Below are positions 734 through 22,482 of a stretch of DNA of 23,087 nt, in pieces. Both the position numbers and the translations under genes were made by a program. How positions within the stretch are numbered: position 1 is the stretch's first letter; every line of letters begins with the position of its first letter. The DNA comes from a virus. The notes beneath the pieces were generated by a model that worked only from the letters and a program-made list of their open reading frames with translations, searched no databases and was not told the DNA's origin. The stretch spans positions 1 to 23,087 of the IMG/VR virus record IMGVR_UViG_3300013131_000256, one strand, 5' to 3'.

Positions 734-1432
734 TTATCGATTTCCTTTCTGTAAATTCTCTTGCCATGGTATAAATCTTAAATTGTCCGGTGAAGCAATG
801 ATATCCGGATCTATACTATCTGCATATCCTTTAGATATTGGAATGACATGATCTATTTGATAGGCTCCATCAGTACCGGCAATTCCTCGTAGTTCCGGAT
901 CATATCCTGGAATTAAATGCGCATTGTCCTCTGTCAATCTCCATACATCGTAATAATAACGTTTGCGGTCTGGTAAGGTATCATACCAATGCTGCCAGGA
1001 TTTGTATCCGAGTTGTTTACATACATACTCTTTACGCCCAATCGATATTTTACTATTACGTATAGGATTTTTCCAGGCCTGTATATAATTTTCATATTGA
1101 GTTTCGGTATATTTTTTACCGGCATTCCATTGTTTACGAGTACCGTCTTTGTATTGTTGCCTACGAGTTTCACTTGATTTGCTAATACCTTCTTCTGTAT
1201 AAAAACCTCCGTTAACTCTGGCTACATGACCTCGTATATACTCGCCGAACTTACCGTTCTGATAATTTAGTTCTTGGTCACATCCGCATTTACATTTTGG
1301 ATGTATTCCGCCGTGGTAGACATTAATAAAGGTCTGTATTCCTTTTATTTTATGTGTTCTGGAATTATGGTTCTGCAAACTCTTGTAACTATTGAATTTG
1401 CGATTACAATCCGTACATGTAAATTCGGTCAT
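734..1432 (-). CDS. HNH homing-type endonuclease with C2H2 zinc finger
   Basis: Free-standing endonuclease of 232 residues. The chosen start is the ATG at 1432-1430 (MTEFTCTDC), preceded by AAGGA; a longer reading from a TTG at 1492 would translate through the regulatory hairpin and is unlikely. The N-terminus holds a C2H2 zinc finger (C6, C9, H22, H27; CX2CX12HX4H). It is followed by a CKCGC cluster (47-51) and H69, a small metal-binding module common in phage HNH enzymes. The C-terminal HNH domain shows the DH pair (194-195) in YQIDHVIPIS and the Asn-rich end PDNLRF...ENLQKGNR. Such enzymes cut a target in phages lacking the gene, so that it is copied in by repair. It sits between tail tube and baseplate hub genes, a typical intergenic homing site. 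Expression looks controlled by the hairpin at 1436-1477. Confidence 0.85.
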   Translation of the reverse strand: MTEFTCTDCNRKFNSYKSLQNHNSRTHKIKGIQTFINVYHGGIHPKCKCGCDQELNYQNGKFGEYIRGHVARVNGGFYTEEGISKSSETRRQQYKDGTRKQWNAGKKYTETQYENYIQAWKNPIRNSKISIGRKEYVCKQLGYKSWQHWYDTLPDRKRYYYDVWRLTEDNAHLIPGYDPELRGIAGTDGAYQIDHVIPISKGYADSIDPDIIASPDNLRFIPWQENLQKGNR

Positions 1433-1435
1433 AAA

Positions 1436-1477
1436 AAAATCCTTATACTTATTATTTCTAATAAATATAAGGATTTT
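1436..1477 (-). promoter_or_regulatory. RBS-sequestering hairpin with an internal late-promoter motif, before the HNH gene
   Basis: On the coding strand, arms of 19 nt (1477-1459 and 1454-1436) pair along their whole length with one G-U wobble, closing a GAAA tetraloop (1458-1455). The Shine-Dalgarno AAGGA lies wholly in the second arm, four bases before a 7-nt U run that leads into the ATG. The first arm contains the ATATTTAT motif (1468-1461). A transcript coming from gp19 would fold and hide the RBS, and the A/U-rich stem plus U run could also act as a terminator for gp19. A transcript starting just after the motif would lack the first arm and be translatable. This matches the known T4 control of I-TevI and a few other genes; here it is inferred from sequence. 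Confidence 0.8.
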
Positions 1478-1504
1478 AATTCTAACTTCCAAATATGACT
1501 GCCA

Positions 1505-2038: not shown

Positions 2039-3820
2039 TTATTCTGGGAAACTAGCACCTGTTGGTAGAATATTGAAATCAACAATAATAAATTCGGCCG
2101 TTTTAGCAGGTTGAAGATAAATTGCTCCTCTCATTTCATTTCTATCAATTACATCAGGAGTATTATTTGTTTCATCCATTACAACTTTAAAGGCATATAA
2201 ACCTTGACGTTGTTGGATATTATCAAAGTATGGATTAACAATACTTAAGAATCTGTTTCTTGTTGCTGCCGTATTGTTTTCAAATACTAAATACTTGGTA
2301 CTTGAAGCAATAAACTTCTTAGCAGCAATTAACAGACGACGTACATTTACACGATCTAATGCAGATGCTTTCTTTTGCAATGTCTTTTGTCCAAATACAA
2401 CAACTCCGGTATTAGGGAAAGTTGCAATTGGATTTACAGATGCATCATATAAAGTATCTCTGTTTGCCAATGTTAATTTACGTTCGGTTTGAATTGCAAT
2501 ATCAATTCCACCACGATTTAAACCTGCAGGGGCAAACCATGGAGCAGCTACTCGGTCATTAAATGCATATACACCTGGAATCAATGCAGAAGCTGGAACC
2601 CATACATTCTTTCCTAAGTCATTGTCTGGAATTTTAATCCATGGCCAATAAATTGCAGCATAGTTACTATCACGGCCGTCGGCTATTGTAGTCGCAGTTG
2701 AAATTGAAGCTCCATACTCTACTGGATCGTATACTAAGAAACAATCTCCACGATCTTCTACCATGCTAACAGCTTCAGTGATAACAGCAGCATGATTTGT
2801 ATAGTTATCAATCAGGCCTGGTAATACTAACAAATTGATATCATATTCGTCTTGGTTTTTCAATAAACGAATTGCATCAACATAAGCATCTAATCCGTCA
2901 CTAGCATTGGCTAAATTATATCCTTGCGTATTAGTATTGCTAATAGTTTCAAAAAACGATTGCGGATGTTGTATATTACCGTCACTTCCTTGTGCAAATG
3001 TTCCAGATACCGCAGCAGGTAGTGATGCAGATGCAGCTCCTACACGTACACGGCCGTTACTATCTAAATAATTTAAAGTTGATTTAACTTCGCTAACACG
3101 TACATAACTTGACTTGTTAGGGAATGAACCAGACAATTGAAGAAATGGATCTGATGTTCCGCCATCACGTAATGTATATATTTGGTCTCCAATTGCACGA
3201 GCAATAAAGTTTGGTGAATTAAGATCCAATGTTAAATTATTGAATTGTTCAACAATTGTCTTTCTACGATTAGTATCATCACCGCGGCGAAGTAATAATG
3301 TAAATGTACCTTTAGCATTGTTTACATTGGATACTTCCCAACGTAAATTGTTAGCACTTCCACTTACAAGAATACCATTAAGCCCTTGGTCTGTGGTTAA
3401 ACCTTTTCCTAAGTTAACAGCACTAGACTGTCCACTATTAAGAATAGCCCCGTCCGCCAATGTAGTTAATTTAAATGAATATCCAGAACCAATTGATTGA
3501 GTCACATATGATGTTGCCGGGCTATATGCTCCAGCTAAAATACGTACTACAGTTAATGTATCTGCATACTTTAAATACTCTTGTGCCGCATAGTTAGTTA
3601 AATATTTGTAATCAGCTTCAACCGCTGCAGAACCGCTTGTAAATGCTCCGCCAAATATTTGTACAAACTCTGAGTAACTAGTTACTTGAGTAGGAATACC
3701 AGCAGGGCCTTTTGCAGTAGGTCCTATAATTGCAGCTCCAATTGCAGCAACTCCCGCAGGTAAAAACGATTGATCTACTTCATTCGTAAATACTCCGGGA
3801 GATATAATTTTTTCAGCCAT
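2039..3820 (-). CDS. 18: Tail sheath protein, T4 gp18-like
   Basis: 593 residues, slightly shorter than T4 gp18 (659). The N-terminus (ISPGVFTNEVDQSFL, then AIIGPTAKGPAGIPTQVTSY) is typical of contractile-tail sheath proteins. The C-terminal third (NRDTLYDASVNPIATFP, LQKKASALDRVNVRRL, then FENNTAATRNRF) is the conserved sheath domain that makes the inter-subunit handshake along the tail. Sheath contraction drives the tube through the host envelope. The ATG at 3820 is preceded by AGGAG, which lies in a possible hairpin with the late promoter motif (3822-3874). It comes just before gp19. The middle part, about residues 100-330, is likely the variable outer domain. Confidence 0.93.
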   Translation of the reverse strand: MAEKIISPGVFTNEVDQSFLPAGVAAIGAAIIGPTAKGPAGIPTQVTSYSEFVQIFGGAFTSGSAAVEADYKYLTNYAAQEYLKYADTLTVVRILAGAYSPATSYVTQSIGSGYSFKLTTLADGAILNSGQSSAVNLGKGLTTDQGLNGILVSGSANNLRWEVSNVNNAKGTFTLLLRRGDDTNRRKTIVEQFNNLTLDLNSPNFIARAIGDQIYTLRDGGTSDPFLQLSGSFPNKSSYVRVSEVKSTLNYLDSNGRVRVGAASASLPAAVSGTFAQGSDGNIQHPQSFFETISNTNTQGYNLANASDGLDAYVDAIRLLKNQDEYDINLLVLPGLIDNYTNHAAVITEAVSMVEDRGDCFLVYDPVEYGASISTATTIADGRDSNYAAIYWPWIKIPDNDLGKNVWVPASALIPGVYAFNDRVAAPWFAPAGLNRGGIDIAIQTERKLTLANRDTLYDASVNPIATFPNTGVVVFGQKTLQKKASALDRVNVRRLLIAAKKFIASSTKYLVFENNTAATRNRFLSIVNPYFDNIQQRQGLYAFKVVMDETNNTPDVIDRNEMRGAIYLQPAKTAEFIIVDFNILPTGASFPE

Positions 3821-10678: not shown

Positions 10679-12406
10679 TTAAAGTTGGTTTAATCCACCT
10701 ACCCAAATCTTACCGTAGAATTCTGGACGAACCATTTTCTTCGCGTAACGAGTCATCACACCTTTTCTTGGAGTGAAGTTAGTTGGGTCATAAACAAGTG
10801 GAGTCATCATCAATGGAACATACGGAGCATAAACAGCACCAGTTTCAAGGAACTGACTTCCACGGTATCCTAATAGGATAGTGTTTTCAGTCATATAAGG
10901 ATTCTTATATACTTGATAACGGTTGTTAATAGCACCTACTTTTTGTACACCCATTGCAAAGTTCATTTTGTTACCGTCAGTATCAGCAGCATATCCTGGG
11001 ATAGACTCAAGAATAGTTGCTACAGTTGGAGAACATACTAAGAAGTTCGCTCCACCGCGCATAGTTAACTGATGAATTTTGTTAGATACTTTTTGGATTT
11101 TAGTTCCTAAAGTTTGGAACCAAGTACCTTGGTTATATGCCTGACCTGCAGTAGCAGCATTTACAAATGCATTTGTTGCAGCATCATAAACATAACCAAT
11201 CTGTGCTGACCAATACTCAGTTGTTTGAGCGTTTTGGATCAACATGTCTAAGATCTCAAGATCAATTTCTTGTGAAATATACTCAGACAACATGCTAGTC
11301 AATTCCGCTTCAGCGTCAATTGAGTGGTAAGCATTTAAGTCTTGAGCAAACTCAGGAGACCAAATAGCTTTTAACTTACGAGTCTTGGCAACGATTGCTT
11401 CAGAACGAAGTTCTAAGTTAATTTCTGGAATAGCTAAGTTTGTGCTTGAGTTTGTATTGTTACCAACAGCTGTCGGATCTTCAAAATCACCACGGCTGTT
11501 ATCAAGTGGTTGCTTATGATAAACTAATACAGGCGAATTAAATGCAGCTCCCGGATCGATCAAGAACTCGATGTGACCTTTATCTGCAGAAATACGTGTA
11601 AATTCAGGATACAATCCAGTAAGTGCACCAGCACCTGCCTGTACATTAAATCCACGAATACCTTTTAAGTCAGGATTACTAACACCTAACGAACCAGTCG
11701 GGATAGATAAGATAGTGAATCCAGCAAGACCGTTAGCAACTACAGAAGCAGAAAATTCTGCATTGAAGTTAGTAAACCAATCAAATTGTGCTTGAGATAA
11801 TGTACCATTGCTAGTAAATGCGCTATTTCCAACTGCTACAGATCCAGTACGTGCATTTGTTACAGCGTCAGTTAAAGCGCCTAAAGATGCAGTAACGTTG
11901 TTAACAGAATAACCAAAACGTCCAGCACCGTAAAGACCTTCGCTAGGAGCAGATCCACCACGATCTGAATCGGTAATACCGAATACAGAGTCAGCTTGAG
12001 AAGTACGTCCTTGACCAGTTAAAAAGTCATTACCAGTACCAGTAACACCGCGTTGAGTGCCTTGAGCAGTACCATATTTGAAATCCAAATAGAATACAAG
12101 ACCTGATGGTAGGTTCATTGGTTGTACACTAACGAAATCTTTTGCTGCAATTTCAGCAAAGATACGACGTACTAATGGTAAAGCTACACCAGCCCACTGT
12201 TCAGCATTTGAATCAGTACCGGTAGAGTTAGCTTCAGTTACAAGTTGCTTAGCTTGGTTCTCTAAAAGAACAGCCATGCCCTTGCGCTCAACCTCATTAC
12301 TTAAGCCTTCCAAAAGACCAGTACGTGCCCACTTCTTTTCAAGTTGGATCGATACTGCATTTTGATTTGCTTGAGTATCATGAGGTAACAAAGAATTTAA
12401 ATTCAT
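10679..12406 (-). CDS. 23: Major capsid protein precursor, T4 gp23-like
   Basis: 575 residues (T4 gp23 is 521). The N-terminal propeptide ends at a likely prohead protease site, QLVTE58|A59, followed by a segment with EQWAGVALPLVRRIFAEI and VSVQPMNLPSGLVFYLD, which is highly conserved in gp23 just after its cleavage site (E65 in T4). The C-terminal part (MMTPLVYDPTNFTPRKGVMT and RYAKKMVRPEFYGKIWV) is equally typical. The HK97-fold protein builds the head lattice. The start follows GAGGA, 23 nt after the scaffold gene, with which it is surely co-transcribed; a strong terminator follows. The P3 residue of the cleavage site is Val, not the usual Leu/Ile. Confidence 0.96.
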   Translation of the reverse strand: MNLNSLLPHDTQANQNAVSIQLEKKWARTGLLEGLSNEVERKGMAVLLENQAKQLVTEANSTGTDSNAEQWAGVALPLVRRIFAEIAAKDFVSVQPMNLPSGLVFYLDFKYGTAQGTQRGVTGTGNDFLTGQGRTSQADSVFGITDSDRGGSAPSEGLYGAGRFGYSVNNVTASLGALTDAVTNARTGSVAVGNSAFTSNGTLSQAQFDWFTNFNAEFSASVVANGLAGFTILSIPTGSLGVSNPDLKGIRGFNVQAGAGALTGLYPEFTRISADKGHIEFLIDPGAAFNSPVLVYHKQPLDNSRGDFEDPTAVGNNTNSSTNLAIPEINLELRSEAIVAKTRKLKAIWSPEFAQDLNAYHSIDAEAELTSMLSEYISQEIDLEILDMLIQNAQTTEYWSAQIGYVYDAATNAFVNAATAGQAYNQGTWFQTLGTKIQKVSNKIHQLTMRGGANFLVCSPTVATILESIPGYAADTDGNKMNFAMGVQKVGAINNRYQVYKNPYMTENTILLGYRGSQFLETGAVYAPYVPLMMTPLVYDPTNFTPRKGVMTRYAKKMVRPEFYGKIWVGGLNQL

Positions 12407-12428
12407 TTTTTTTCCTCTTGTTTGTTAA

Positions 12429-13325
12429 TTACTTTAAATTAGCCAATTTCTTCCAACGTTCAGCTAAAGTATTACCTTCAGAAAGAATTTCTTTCTTTGG
12501 AGCAGTACTACGTGTTGGTTTAGAAGCATAGCCTTCTTTAATGTTTTGTTTTTTCGCTGTTTTAGAAACAGTTAAAGATTCACACAATGTGCTAAATACT
12601 AACTTAACTTCACGCAAATTATTTGCACGGTCAAAGTTTTCAATAACTTTCATTTTTTGTGATTCATTTAATTCATAGTTTCTAAACAACTTGTTAGAAA
12701 ATAATAGTTTTGCATTAAGAAGATTTACTTCGTTAATTTTGTTTTTCAAGAATTTGATAACACGAATAGCTTCTTCTAATTCTTTTTCAGCTTCTTCGTT
12801 AGTTTCTTTTTCTTCTTCTTCTTTCATTTCCTTTTCTTCTTCTTCTTTCATTTCTTCGTCTTCACCTTCTGCTTCACGTAAAGCATTGATAATTTCGTCG
12901 ATTGAAATTTCACCTTCTCCTGGATCTTCTGTTTTAGATGAATATGCATCTACTTTGTTATCACCAGTTCCGATGTCAGAAGAATCTAAGTCTTCTTCGG
13001 TTACTTCTTCGTCACCTTCAAGTTCACGAATGATTGCTTCTAAATCCAATCCTTCCTCTTCCATTTCTTCTTCTTCAATAGCTGGGCCTGGATCCGGTGT
13101 ACCATCAGTGTCATTTTCTTCACCTTCTTCAGTTACTTCTGGAGCTGGTGCTTCAATTTCTTCTTCTTCTTGGTACATTTCATCATCAGCTTCAGATAAG
13201 CGAGCAGATAACATGCTTTGGAGTCTTGGGGTGAAAGCTTCTTCTAATGCAATTTTGGCATTTGCTAGTGCAGTTTCGCGTACAGCTTTGGCATCAGCAA
13301 TTGCCTCTTTTAACAATTTGTTCAT
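12429..13325 (-). CDS. 22: Prohead core scaffold protein, T4 gp22-like
   Basis: 298 residues (T4 gp22 is 269). The N-terminus (KEAIADAKAVRETALANAKI) and LEEAFTPRLQSMLSARLSEA are typical of gp22 in marine T4-like phages. The centre is extremely acidic with long Glu/Asp runs and two copies of KEEEEKEMKEEEE-type sequence, a nucleotide-level repeat near 12800-12855. The C-terminal third is helical and basic. A likely protease site is LSE45|A46. Scaffold fills the prohead and is cut to peptides by gp21 before DNA packaging. The start follows GAGGA; the gene opens the unit that continues into gp23, after the terminator of the bS21 gene. Confidence 0.85.
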   Translation of the reverse strand: MNKLLKEAIADAKAVRETALANAKIALEEAFTPRLQSMLSARLSEADDEMYQEEEEIEAPAPEVTEEGEENDTDGTPDPGPAIEEEEMEEEGLDLEAIIRELEGDEEVTEEDLDSSDIGTGDNKVDAYSSKTEDPGEGEISIDEIINALREAEGEDEEMKEEEEKEMKEEEEKETNEEAEKELEEAIRVIKFLKNKINEVNLLNAKLLFSNKLFRNYELNESQKMKVIENFDRANNLREVKLVFSTLCESLTVSKTAKKQNIKEGYASKPTRSTAPKKEILSEGNTLAERWKKLANLK

Positions 13326-13440
13326 TGCTTTTCCTCGTATTTAATTTGGAAATAAGATTATTGGAATCTTAATAAAGATATAAAAATAATTTAGAGTGAC
13401 TATATATTGAGATATAGTATCAAGACAATTATATATATAC
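13326..13440 (-). promoter_or_regulatory. Leader/promoter region of the gp22-gp23 unit
   Basis: 115 nt between a terminator and the scaffold start. It holds a near copy of the late motif, ATCTTTATTAAGA on the coding strand (13379-13367; one core mismatch, A to C), 41 nt before the ATG, and overlapping small stems (ATCTT/AAGAT; AAGATT/AATCTT). A TTGTCT...TATAGT pair farther upstream could be an early-type promoter. Since the major capsid unit needs a strong promoter and lies behind a terminator, one must be here; which element serves is uncertain. Confidence 0.4.
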
Positions 13441-13448
13441 ACGATAGT

Positions 13449-13478
13449 AAAAAAGATGCCGTTAATGACATCTTTTTT
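13449..13478 (-). terminator. Intrinsic terminator after the bS21 gene
   Basis: Ten-bp stem AAAAAAGATG/CATCTTTTTT with a 10-nt loop; on the coding strand it ends in a run of six T. It lies about 20 nt after the bS21 stop codon. Since both strands have T runs after the stem it could work in both directions, but no plus-strand gene comes up to it. Confidence 0.8.
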
Positions 13479-13496: not shown

Positions 13497-13751
13497 CTAC
13501 ATGTTTTCTGACTGCTTTCGTTGTAAATAAGCACTACGTTTACGTTGTTCCTTCTTCTTAAAGGATGGCTTAATGTATTCGGTTCGATCCTTCAATTCAA
13601 TTAAAATTTTAGAATCTTTAATCATTTTCTTCCATTTACGTAATGCAAATGAAAGATCTCGTTTACCATCATCATAAGGTAACTTTGTAACTCGTACTCC
13701 TGTCATTGAACCAGGAATAATGCTTTCGAAATGTTTTTGTTTTTTATTCAT
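13497..13751 (-). CDS. rpsU: Phage-encoded ribosomal protein bS21
   Basis: 84 residues with the bS21 pattern: VRVTKLPYDDGKRDLSFALR, then KWKKMIKDSKILIELKDRTE, then YIKPS and a Lys/Arg-rich helix KKKEQRKRSAYLQRK. Cellular bS21 is about 55-70 residues; here about 15 residues are added at the N-terminus. bS21 sits on the small subunit next to the 3' end of 16S rRNA and affects initiation. The SAYLQ end matches the AxYxQ end of Bacteroidota bS21, whose Tyr helps hold the anti-SD. The chosen start is ATG 13751; a TTG at 13775 would add eight residues. No Shine-Dalgarno is seen, unlike most neighbours. It is the last gene before a terminator. Phage bS21 genes are known in aquatic phages; alignment here is by eye. 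Confidence 0.85.
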   Translation of the reverse strand: MNKKQKHFESIIPGSMTGVRVTKLPYDDGKRDLSFALRKWKKMIKDSKILIELKDRTEYIKPSFKKKEQRKRSAYLQRKQSENM

Positions 13752-13805
13752 ATATAACTGTTTAATTTGTTGCAATATAAGTACTAATTTTCAAAAAGTC
13801 AAATA

Positions 13806-15374: not shown

Positions 15375-15980
15375 TTAGAACTCCATAATTATATCGGAAA
15401 TAATACGTTCGATATTTCCGTATTTGTTAGATGTATTTTTATTAATGCCTTCATTAACAGGTGAAAGAAATGCTCCATGCGTCGATGGATTACTAACAAA
15501 GTCAAAAGCAATCAATTCAAAATCGGGTTGAACTTCCATTGAGGTGCTACCTTCACGCATAACTTCTTTTACAGAACCTAATCCACGTGAACTAATACCT
15601 AATTTAATTCCTGATTGAAACAATGCTTTTAATATATTACCAGACGGTGTTGGCAGTACTTCGACAGTGCCTACCAAATCATTTCCGTTCCAGCCCATCG
15701 ACAAAACATTATGAGATACGTTATTTAAATTGACCACTGAGCTATCTGGATGGTCTAATTCTCCTAATGCCCTACGTTCTGCTATATACGTCGATTGATA
15801 CTTTTTTGCTTCACGCATTAACGTTTCCATTGGATATACACGGCCGTTTTGGTTACGTGCATCCGCTCTTTGAAGAACGCCTGTAACAATTAATTTACCG
15901 TTATTATTAGCTAACGATTCGTTAATTTGTTGAGGTGATACTTCAAATAGGCTATAATCGACAATTAATTGTTTAGACAT
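15375..15980 (-). CDS. 21: Prohead core protease, T4 gp21-like
   Basis: 201 residues (T4 gp21 is 212). Family motifs: GRVYPMETLMREAKKY, the catalytic His in ELDHP (H77), the catalytic Ser in GISSRGLG (S130 or S131), and FDFVSNPS with D160 as possible third member. It is a serine protease with the herpesvirus-assemblin-like fold; it is activated in the finished prohead, cuts scaffold, capsid and internal proteins after (L/I)xE, and then degrades itself. Possible self-cleavage sites here are INE21|S and VNE177|G. The start has GAGGA, which overlaps the stop of the upstream gene. It lies between portal and scaffold genes as in T4. Confidence 0.93.
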   Translation of the reverse strand: MSKQLIVDYSLFEVSPQQINESLANNNGKLIVTGVLQRADARNQNGRVYPMETLMREAKKYQSTYIAERRALGELDHPDSSVVNLNNVSHNVLSMGWNGNDLVGTVEVLPTPSGNILKALFQSGIKLGISSRGLGSVKEVMREGSTSMEVQPDFELIAFDFVSNPSTHGAFLSPVNEGINKNTSNKYGNIERIISDIIMEF

Positions 15981-19019: not shown

Positions 19020-20894
19020 TTAATCTAATAACTGTCGTTCATCTAACATAGTTCCTGCATCATCGTCTTGTACATCTTCAATCAATGTTTGTTTAAGAAC
19101 TTTTGGCGATTTAAATTTAGATTTTAATGTGTCTATTAAATTTTTAGATGAAATATTTTCCGTACTTAACGGCGATCCGCCTTTAAAGTTATGTTGTAAT
19201 GGCGACTTATCGGCACTAAAAGTTTTAGTTAATTCTTTGGCTCCTAATGGATCTCTACCATGCGGACTAGAATGTTTGCCCCATGTACTAGCATCTTTAG
19301 GTCTACCTGGGCCGGCTACATGTTCTTGTTCAATTGGAAGGTCGCCTATTTTATTGGCTACATGCATACTTGCAATGTCATGCGGCGTACCAAAACTCAT
19401 GTTAGTCTTAACCGGATCATTACCTTCTGATTTAATTTGTTCCTTGCGGAAGTCTTGTTTAAGATCTTCAATAACCTGCTCTTGTTCTGTTGCCCATTCT
19501 TGTTGAGTCATTCCGTAAATATTTTCGTAAATCCATTTTTCAGAAAACATTCCGCTTTCTTTAAGATTACCTGCCAAATCTACTTTAGTAGCCAAAGTTT
19601 CTAACTTTTGCTTTTCGTAAATTAGTGACGGATTGGTTAATGATAAACTAAAGTTAGTTAAATCTTCATCTTCAAATCCTTGTGCATATAAATGTACAAT
19701 TGCAATCTTTGTTAACTCTGATACAAATATCTTTTGTAGACGTTCTATTGTTCTTGCAAAACGTACATCTTCTGCCGCTAACGTTGCTTTACCTTCAACT
19801 CCCTCATCATATCCTAAAAATGCTTTTGGAATTTTTAATGCGGCATGCATTTTATTTCTTAAGTATTCAATGTCTTCAATTTGGCCATCATTACTTAAAC
19901 CATTTAATGTATCAATAGATGTTCCAGACTCTCCTCCGCGTACTGGTAAGAAATAATCTTCTAACATGTTTTGCATATTAAATTTAAGATTATATTGACC
20001 CGTAGTTTCATCTATATACGGAATCTTTTTCATCTTTTGGACAATACTATCGATATGTGCATCTACTTCTGCCGGTGGTAAATTACCTACATCTATTTTA
20101 AAAATACGTCTCTCGGGTGCACGCATGATACGATGAATTAACATTGCATCTTCCATCAATGTCAATTGTTTGAAAATCTTACGTGCTGGCTCAATCATTG
20201 ATTTGCCGTATGGAAGGAAGTTTGTATCGGATATTAATCGGAAGTGTGCTACTTGATAATTTTCCAACGGAGCTCTTTCTGTTTTAGTACGTCCGGCTGC
20301 ATACATTGTATGACTACCCTCAAATAAAAATCTATATGCATATGGATTATCTGGATCATATCCTTCTTCACGACGTACTTCGTATGCTGAAAGTGGTACT
20401 ACGTTAATAATACCTAATTCATCTTCAATATCTAAATATAAAAAGAAATCTCCATACTTACATGCGTTACGAATCCATGGCCATAAATTATAATCTATGT
20501 TAAGAATATCGTAAAATAAATTACGTAATACTTTATATACTTCATTGTTAGGCGTGCGAATAGTTAAAGTATCTCCGTCGGCATCTTTTACTGTTGATTC
20601 ATCTGCATAGATATCTAATGCTGATGATAGAATTGGATCCATATCCATTGTTTCGTAGTCAGAAAACAATTCTAACTTTGAAGTATGAAATGTATACGAT
20701 TGATTATATGTACCATATGACTGTCCACGTTGCAATCCGGCAAATCGGTCTATATACCTATTACTTGATAATGCTCCAGATGATTGAAGTCTGTTAGTAT
20801 CAATTACTTTTAATCTGTTTTTGGCTATTCGCCTAACAACTACATTTGTTGAAAATAAACGTCGTAGTCGATTCGATAATGAAGTGTCTGCCAT
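19020..20894 (-). CDS. 20: Portal protein, T4 gp20-like
   Basis: 624 residues (T4 gp20 is 524). Typical gp20 sequence: MDMDPILSSALDIYADEST, the segment YNLWPWIRNACKYGDFFLYL, then MEDAMLIHRIMRAPERRIF, IEDIEYLRNKMHAALKIPK and FLGYDEG. Twelve copies form the ring at one head vertex that starts head assembly and through which DNA passes. The extra length is in the C-terminus after about residue 500, a charged, Pro/Gly/Ser-rich tail (GPGRPKDASTWGKHSSPHGR). A late motif lies only 15 nt before the ATG and no good SD is seen. It directly follows the terminase gene. Confidence 0.94.
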   Translation of the reverse strand: MADTSLSNRLRRLFSTNVVVRRIAKNRLKVIDTNRLQSSGALSSNRYIDRFAGLQRGQSYGTYNQSYTFHTSKLELFSDYETMDMDPILSSALDIYADESTVKDADGDTLTIRTPNNEVYKVLRNLFYDILNIDYNLWPWIRNACKYGDFFLYLDIEDELGIINVVPLSAYEVRREEGYDPDNPYAYRFLFEGSHTMYAAGRTKTERAPLENYQVAHFRLISDTNFLPYGKSMIEPARKIFKQLTLMEDAMLIHRIMRAPERRIFKIDVGNLPPAEVDAHIDSIVQKMKKIPYIDETTGQYNLKFNMQNMLEDYFLPVRGGESGTSIDTLNGLSNDGQIEDIEYLRNKMHAALKIPKAFLGYDEGVEGKATLAAEDVRFARTIERLQKIFVSELTKIAIVHLYAQGFEDEDLTNFSLSLTNPSLIYEKQKLETLATKVDLAGNLKESGMFSEKWIYENIYGMTQQEWATEQEQVIEDLKQDFRKEQIKSEGNDPVKTNMSFGTPHDIASMHVANKIGDLPIEQEHVAGPGRPKDASTWGKHSSPHGRDPLGAKELTKTFSADKSPLQHNFKGGSPLSTENISSKNLIDTLKSKFKSPKVLKQTLIEDVQDDDAGTMLDERQLLD

Positions 20895-20902
20895 ACTTTA
20901 TG

Positions 20903-20919
20903 TTTTTATATAAATATCA
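20903..20919 (-). promoter_or_regulatory. 20: Late-promoter-like motif upstream of the portal gene
   Basis: The coding strand reads GATATTTATATAAAAAC, overlapping the terminase stop codon TGA; core ATATTTAT at 20910-20917, 15 nt before the ATG. TTACTATG before it can pair loosely with CATAAAGTA after it (2-nt bulge); I regard that pairing as weak. Confidence 0.55.
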
Positions 20920-22482
20920 TAGTAACCATTTAAGACCGTTACTATCTCCGTTCCAGTCCCATGATCCATTTGAAGAATTTTTAGAAGAATAGATGCTAGG
21001 ATTAACTTTACCAAAATGACCTAACGATTTTCTAGAAAGATCTATTCCTTGTTGACGTAAACGTAATGCCGTATCTCGTACCCATAATGCAATTGCAAAT
21101 GACATTACCAAGTCGTCATTATAACCGCGCTGTGCTTCCGCTCTGCTACCGTTCCAGATAAATACATACAATTCATCTGTTAATCTTCTACTTTTTACGA
21201 TAGGACCTTTTTCTCTAAAATAAGTTTCTAGTTTAGAAATCATTAACGGTCTTGTTTTTGATGTAGTAGAAAATCCTGGAACTTTGTCTGATTTGGATTT
21301 TAAATCATATCCTTTAGACAAATGTACATCTTCGTCTACATATGCATCTTGTCGATATGAATAGTATAAATTTTCATAGTTACGATCAATTGCTATTTGT
21401 ATAACAGCCCATCCTATATTTGCATTTTCAATAACTAGCAATGCATTGTTATAATCAGTAGCGACAGATACTAGCATATTGCCGTATTCCGTAGTTCCTA
21501 TCTTTCCACGATACTCTGCTACTTGTGTCATGGTTTCAATTTCTAACACATGGAATGCGGAATAATCGGCGCCGTCGCCTCGAGCAACGTCAGCTACTAC
21601 TACATAACTTTTATTATAATCTGGATAGTCCCATACCCAATAGTTACTATCAAATCCTCGTTTTTCGATAGGATCTTTTACATATGTTTGCTCATACCAT
21701 TGTATAACCGGGCCATCTACGACAGTGTGTCCAGATGATATAAAGTCACAATCACATTCTTGCGCCGCTTCTTTATCTCCTAACAATCTTGTTTGTTCTT
21801 CTCTCCATGTTTCATTACGATCTGGATGTACTGTCCAGTGTAGTTTAATTGGATTGAATTGTCCTCCCGCTTCAGCATCTACCCATAATTTATGAAACAA
21901 GTTACCGGTACCGTTAGGTGTTGATAATATAATAGCACCTCCACCTGTCGCCAATGTTTGTTGAGCTGATGTCCATATTTCATCAATACCTTTAATAAAG
22001 GCAGCTTCATCTATTACTAACAATGACAATGCTTCTGAACGACCCGATGTCCCTGCACTAGAAACGGCTTTGATTTGCGATCCGTTTTTAAATCTTAGTG
22101 ATAATTTATTATCTTCAATTGATTTACCTTTCAACCAACCCGGCAAATTATCATGCATCACTCTTACTTTTGTTACTAAGTTTTTAGCAACGTCTTGAGT
22201 TGTAGCAATTACTAATACGTTAAAGTCATTTTTAAATAACATTGCCCAAAGAGCATATCCTGCAGTTAAAGTAGATATACCTAACTGTCTAGACTTAAGA
22301 ATAATATTATATCGGTTATCATGTAGACTATGTAAAGTATCTTCTTGGAAAGGATACAAATTAAAATACATCTTTCCTTTTGTAGGGTGTTGAATAATAC
22401 AGTATTTACGCATAAAATGTACAGGGTCAGCTGCACATTTTTTATACTCTTCTGCTATAATTTCTTTTAATGATTTTGACAT
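20917..22482 (-). CDS. 17: Terminase large subunit, T4 gp17-like
   Basis: 521 residues (T4 gp17 is 610; the difference is mainly at the N-terminus). ATPase domain: Walker A KSRQLGIST (63-71), Walker B LLVIDEA (154-160, D158 and E159), coupling motif STPNGTGN (187-194). Nuclease domain: D298 in VVADVARGDGADYSAF, E352 in LVIENANIG and D456/D457 in YNDDLVMSF, the acidic residues that bind metal in gp17. The enzyme pumps DNA into the prohead through the portal and cuts the concatemer. The small subunit gp16 is not in this window. The start has no clear SD; the gap of 20 nt before it contains TTCTTTATATTAAA, a poor copy of the late motif. Confidence 0.96.
   Translation of the reverse strand: MSKSLKEIIAEEYKKCAADPVHFMRKYCIIQHPTKGKMYFNLYPFQEDTLHSLHDNRYNIILKSRQLGISTLTAGYALWAMLFKNDFNVLVIATTQDVAKNLVTKVRVMHDNLPGWLKGKSIEDNKLSLRFKNGSQIKAVSSAGTSGRSEALSLLVIDEAAFIKGIDEIWTSAQQTLATGGGAIILSTPNGTGNLFHKLWVDAEAGGQFNPIKLHWTVHPDRNETWREEQTRLLGDKEAAQECDCDFISSGHTVVDGPVIQWYEQTYVKDPIEKRGFDSNYWVWDYPDYNKSYVVVADVARGDGADYSAFHVLEIETMTQVAEYRGKIGTTEYGNMLVSVATDYNNALLVIENANIGWAVIQIAIDRNYENLYYSYRQDAYVDEDVHLSKGYDLKSKSDKVPGFSTTSKTRPLMISKLETYFREKGPIVKSRRLTDELYVFIWNGSRAEAQRGYNDDLVMSFAIALWVRDTALRLRQQGIDLSRKSLGHFGKVNPSIYSSKNSSNGSWDWNGDSNGLKWLL

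Follow-up and report, generated by a model that had tools for sequence, protein, structure and literature searches.

The window analysed here, a 23,087-nt stretch of viral DNA, encodes a ribosomal protein bS21 that belongs to a large family of N-terminally extended bS21 proteins in T4-like phages. The genes of this family, which is new here, lie between the prohead protease and scaffold genes and are co-directional with them, and late-gene Shine-Dalgarno sequences (SDs) accompany the extended protein, as judged from 126 bS21-positive versus 63 bS21-negative loci. Based on sequence comparison, this association across the phage family suggests that the virus refits host ribosomes.

An extended bS21 gene within the head gene block

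The bS21 gene (13497..13751, minus strand) encodes 84 amino acids from an ATG at 13751, and its relatives share the start Met. The preliminary description of this DNA had reported a bS21 gene, and both the open reading frame and a match to Pfam Ribosomal_S21 (PF01165) bear this out. The match of the window protein had an E-value of 4e-6 and a bit score of 26.9, just under the cut-off of 27; it scored 27.3 bits in the genome search, and its relatives scored 29-46 bits. All genes around bS21 are co-directional and form a T4-like head and tail block in the order TerL, portal, protease, bS21, scaffold, MCP, PhoH, neck, sheath and tube, and the window thus holds the T4-like Gp17-Gp20-Gp21-Gp23 order with sheath and tube. 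On the minus strand we located the large terminase (TerL; 20917..22482; PF03237, 1e-10), the portal (Gp20; 19020..20894; PF07230, 8e-82), the prohead protease (15375..15980; PF03420, 4e-25), the scaffold or prohead core gene (12429..13325; assigned by position and size, with no family match), the major capsid protein (Gp23, MCP; 10679..12406; PF07068, 2e-80) and the tail sheath (2039..3820; PF04984/PF17482). An ORF between the tail tube and the next gene (734..1492, minus strand) has a C2H2-like finger with a weak HNH match, and is probably a homing-type insert.

Scans yielded 140 bS21-positive loci, with bS21 on the plus strand in 140/140. In the syntenic loci bS21 runs with the head genes, and its place between protease and scaffold is fixed. 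Among the relatives that share its KKQK motif the longest contig measures 160 kb, the window itself being a 23-kb fragment.

By sequence, the best solved structure for the window protein was bS21 of Flavobacterium johnsoniae (7jil; phmmer). A family profile built from 45 relatives likewise scored 51 bits with 7jil and 45 with 9i5v, compared to at most 38 for other bacteria, and its two top alignments both cover position 54. In F. johnsoniae, Tyr54 of bS21 stacks on the hidden anti-SD. The phmmer alignment to 7jil placed Tyr75 of the window protein (codon 13527..13529, minus strand) on this residue, and Y or F occupied position 54 in 88/88 KKQK relatives. It had been proposed beforehand that the SAYLQ end keeps the anti-SD Tyr, and an alignment with Bacteroidota bS21 had been suggested; in that alignment Bacteroidia bS21 was the best match and the Tyr of SAYLQ, Tyr75, fell on F. 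johnsoniae Tyr54, as proposed. The ribosome-binding C-terminal half is conserved among the relatives, the anti-SD contact included. An AlphaFold2 model of the window protein (mean pLDDT 87.5) had predicted helices at residues 33-47, 49-55 and 62-83 and contained the two-helix bS21 architecture. With this model, Foldseek ranked ribosomal small-subunit chains first and returned no significant match, and searches of PHROGs and INPHARED with the window protein found little. A lone Tyr54 protein (L254) was seen inside the Arg54 clade, an indication that this position switches, perhaps with the host.

The N-terminal extension

The extension comprises approximately 17 codons (MNKKQKHFESIIPGSMT; 13701..13751, minus strand) and is absent from host bS21. 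In aromatic-54 phage members the core of helix 1 starts at residue ∼31, versus residue 14 in 80/80 host proteins, which confirms the extension noted in the preliminary description. KKQK..G was invariant among 11 aligned members (invariant in A1: K3, K4, Q5, K6, S10, I11, P13 and G14), a conservation that is partly due to how members were found, as KKQK was among the patterns of the viral scans, the first of which used six along the protein. The arm is variable in members that were located via MCP rather than by these patterns. Across all bS21-positive loci, however, a motif of the type G-x(3-7)-V-x-V occurred in 105/109 of the aromatic and 24/31 of the Arg/Lys54 proteins. The AlphaFold2 model predicted a short helix at residues 3-10 of the extension. 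A search of host cells with two short patterns found no extended bS21.

Shine-Dalgarno sequences on late genes

We calculated SD energies for the duplex of positions -22..-4 with CACCUCCUUUCU, with shuffled sequences as control. An SD 4-mer at 4-12 nt was present before 17/25 genes of the window (mean 1.6 and maximum 6 in 2000 shuffles). Most starts were set by the longest ATG frame, so these figures carry noise. SDs preceded the protease (-5.9 kcal/mol), scaffold (-5.9), MCP (-6.3) and sheath (-6.5) genes, with GAGGA at 13332..13336 (minus strand) 6-7 nt before the scaffold ATG and at 12413..12417 (minus strand) before the capsid gene. The statement that bS21 lacks an SD (+0.8 kcal/mol) and that most late genes have one therefore stands, with the qualification that the portal (+1.6) and TerL (+2.1) genes are SD-less as well.

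The same pattern was found in the aromatic-54 bS21-positive loci, in which SDs preceded MCP in 83/95, scaffold in 97/102, portal in 1/68, TerL in 3/45 and bS21 in 0/109 cases. These SDs had a strength of -6 to -9 kcal/mol and a spacing peak of 5-9 nt, and clustered within the structural block (pooled p=6e-9). At loci with no bS21 in the protease-MCP interval, SDs were found on MCP in 10/63 and on scaffold in 18/63 cases. An MCP energy below -4 was associated with bS21 presence at p=2e-26 (Fisher), although the loci share ancestry and include near-copies. bS21 changed three times on the MCP tree, twice on branches where the MCP SD also changes. The branch changes behind the association are few, and support for the L279/L282 branch is weak. 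An immuto-like phage had no SDs anywhere along its genome, Flavobacterium phage 11b showed almost no SD use and crAss001 slight use only. Arg/Lys54 relatives carry SDs on the same genes as the aromatic-54 phages. In six bS21-less loci (L214, L216, L219, L228, L229 and L238) the scaffold SD TTTAAGGAGAAA was kept and MCP had no SD.

No SD enrichment was found in viral contigs with an unextended Bacteroidetes-type bS21 (L378-L388, not all independent), so the SD link points to the extended type. The broader idea that SDs accompany any phage bS21 in Bacteroidota was rejected, as the loci of the type described by Chen et al. are without SDs.

The leader of the bS21 gene

The leader of the window gene (AAACAGTTATAT-ATG; 13752..13775, minus strand) is SD-less. 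AGTT, often as AGTT(AT)-ATG, was found within the last 12 nt of 50/78 phage bS21 leaders (4.1 expected). For 66 distinct phage leaders the mean energy was -0.9 kcal/mol with none below -5, versus a mean of -19 for rpsU of Flavobacteriia, of which 80/80 had an SD below -10; in a broader Bacteroidota sample 63% of rpsU genes were below -10 kcal/mol. F. johnsoniae rpsU is autoregulated through its own SD (McNutt 2023, PMC9976891), with a reported strength of < -13 kcal/mol for such regulation. Since it has no rpsU-type SD, the phage bS21 gene should lie outside this feedback loop. In a more distant phage (L389:∼8001), the bS21 gene next to scaffold and MCP has a very strong SD of -13 kcal/mol, and SDs are present elsewhere too.

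Upstream of bS21, TTGACT-17-TATATT (13774..13802, minus strand) resembles a promoter by consensus match only (10/12), and such sites were no commoner in the region than in shuffles. By RNA folding, a stable, terminator-like hairpin separates bS21 from scaffold (13449..13478, minus strand; -12.8 kcal/mol, z -3.55); its 3' arm and tail are U-rich, and a simple terminator scan did not pick it up. Given this hairpin and the promoter-like match, bS21 may be transcribed as a separate unit.

The T4 late promoter is TATAAATA. In the phage group, TATTTATA was strand-biased upstream of genes (123 sense versus 16 antisense in nine sets), for instance in the leaders of the window genes starting at 20894, 10582 and 9769 and also in G001-G011, and probably serves as late promoter throughout this group. 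At aromatic-54 loci it was absent close upstream of MCP, scaffold and nearly all bS21 genes.

The probable host

The Bacteroidota host named in the preliminary description could be narrowed to a probable one, as the GroEL phylogeny of the relatives together with the bS21 profile indicates that the host of the window phage is probably a member of the Bacteroidia. The GroEL tree included proteins from three long bS21-positive aromatic contigs (BLAST-chosen frames), with plasmid records as outgroup. Phages G004 and G006 grouped with the Bacteroidia cell G058 (95/98), and phage G002, from the window's own subclade, with cell G019 (82/74). The Pseudomonadota, like most Arg54 Bacteroidota genomes, fell elsewhere (87/93). 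In both cells residue 54 is Tyr, and SDs are not enriched before their genes. An aromatic residue at this position is a mark of Bacteroidia (PMC9976891). GroEL was encoded by six long contigs of the phage group (L337:15715-17331, L340, L353, L373, L366 and L345), four of these proteins being close to Bacteroidota GroEL and two divergent. CRISPR spacers of 395 Bacteroidota genomes gave no convincing match to 20 kb of the window, the matches being mostly phoH-like and low-complexity. The host promoter TAnnTTTG was not enriched even in phage immuto and is hence uninformative.

Possible role of the phage bS21

The reading we favor, if at somewhat short of even chances, is that the phage bS21 replaces host bS21 and that ribosomes with the extended protein use the SDs on late mRNAs of the phage in its Bacteroidia host. 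SD-blind host ribosomes would make the phage bS21 from its SD-less message, and the protein would take the place of host bS21 on the 30S platform, an incorporation that we infer. Ribosomes carrying the N-terminally extended bS21 would then initiate at ordinary-strength SDs, which would have been placed before the scaffold, capsid, protease, neck and sheath genes. Both a changed access to the anti-SD and any part of the extension in it are presumed. The phage gene, having presumably lost the very strong rpsU SD used by many Flavobacteriia, would escape the feedback. The proposal that unmodified ribosomes produce bS21 first is consistent with the data and not more, since the TerL and portal genes are SD-less too. 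The full version of this idea, in which bS21 with the new arm turns SD-blind Bacteroidia ribosomes into SD users and the late genes are written in an SD code, we hold only tentatively. The kept Tyr/Phe54 would by itself predict continued sequestration of the anti-SD, and the phage SDs, at -6 to -9 kcal/mol, are weaker than the < -13 of rpsU autoregulation. In addition, the L301/L304/L327 lineage keeps weak MCP SDs although it is bS21-less in a 297-kb contig.

The main rival is host range, because the same picture is seen in Arg54 relatives, whose hosts possibly use SDs. In this explanation phages with extended bS21 simply infect SD-using bacteria and their bS21-less relatives SD-blind Bacteroidia, and the SDs say nothing about bS21. 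The Arg/Lys54 members that share SDs on the same genes, including Microcystis phage Mel-JY01, may indeed have SD-using hosts, and all examined phages without extended bS21 whose Bacteroidota host is known, or inferred from bS21, made no or slight use of SDs. However, all KKQK members carry the aromatic residue that marks Bacteroidia, the family profile fits Bacteroidia bS21 best, three members carry GroELs that fall with Bacteroidia cells lacking SDs on their genes, and the SDs are not general but unevenly spread along the genome. We consider a pure host effect rather unlikely. Somewhat less credence still is due to a conservative replacement, in which the phage bS21 continues to hide the anti-SD, supplies bS21 and shuts off host rpsU via the host's feedback, with late-gene SDs that are inherited or act otherwise. 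It would fit the kept Tyr/Phe54, the loss of the autoregulatory SD from the phage gene, the aromatic-54 bS21 without SDs in Chen-type phages and the scaffold SD that persists in some bS21-less phages; it leaves unexplained that MCP SDs and bS21 vanish together on two branches and that SD spacing is strict. A role outside the ribosome, such as that of a virion component or an RNA chaperone, could be reflected in the fixed place of bS21 between protease and scaffold, and virion packaging was mentioned as a possibility by Chen et al. (2022, PMC9723584), but the conserved C-terminal half, with its ribosome-binding and anti-SD contacts, makes such a role improbable.

If the refitting of ribosomes took place as we favor, one viral protein would switch the message choice of the ribosome, and the phage would make a specialised ribosome with its own initiation signal. 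For the role of phage bS21, the association names ordinary SDs on capsid and scaffold genes as the candidate signal and the KKQK..PG arm as the candidate part of the protein, with immuto-like phages, which are without both bS21 and SDs, as a natural control.

Comparison with known systems

The idea that phage bS21 is exchanged into Bacteroidetes ribosomes (Chen 2022; McNutt 2023), the retention of Tyr54 (Chen 2022, PMC9723584) and the link to SD-selective ribosomes (McNutt 2023, PMC9976891) have already been published. In F. johnsoniae, loss of bS21 or mutation of its C-terminus raises translation of SD-bearing messages (PMC9976891). The window protein shares with Bacteroidia bS21 (PF01165; 7jil) the core helices, the FIKPSV..R region and the aromatic residue 54; it differs in its 17-aa N-terminal extension, its location in a phage head block and the absence of the extended rpsU SD (+0.8 versus a mean of -19 kcal/mol in 80 Flavobacteriia). 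The bS21 of Pelagibacter phage HTVC008M, which belongs to another host group, shows only weak sequence similarity to an Arg54 member and was reported to enter E. coli 70S ribosomes (Mizuno 2019, PMC6375957).

Two phages come closest in gene order. Mel-JY01 (PP395634, L088) has a TerL 62.8% identical to that of the window, the same gene order with bS21 between protease and scaffold, and late-gene SDs, whereas it lacks the KKQK extension and has Lys54, an SD on its bS21 gene and a reported cyanobacterial host, Microcystis; it sits within the bS21-positive clade. Flavobacterium phage immuto (MW353177), isolated on Flavobacterium, has a TerL 59.1% identical and the same head gene order, but no bS21 in its whole 160-kb genome and no SDs in the 37-kb region read.

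The bS21 phages of Bacteroidetes described by Chen et al. (PMC9723584) also have an aromatic residue 54 and a bS21 gene near TerL, portal, protease and MCP. For these phages selective translation of phage mRNA was proposed, with the signal not named. Their genomes measure 293-331 kb. Their bS21 gene lies on the strand opposite to the head genes, as it does in IMG/VR examples of this type (L385-L388), whereas the window gene is co-directional with the head genes; three of them (L385, L387 and L388) have neither extension nor SDs, unlike the window with its extended protein and late-gene SDs. By strand and extension, the window bS21 belongs to a different group from this published set. New here are the extended-bS21 family, the SD pattern, the co-change of bS21 and SDs, the host affinity of GroEL and the SD-less state of the Chen-type loci.
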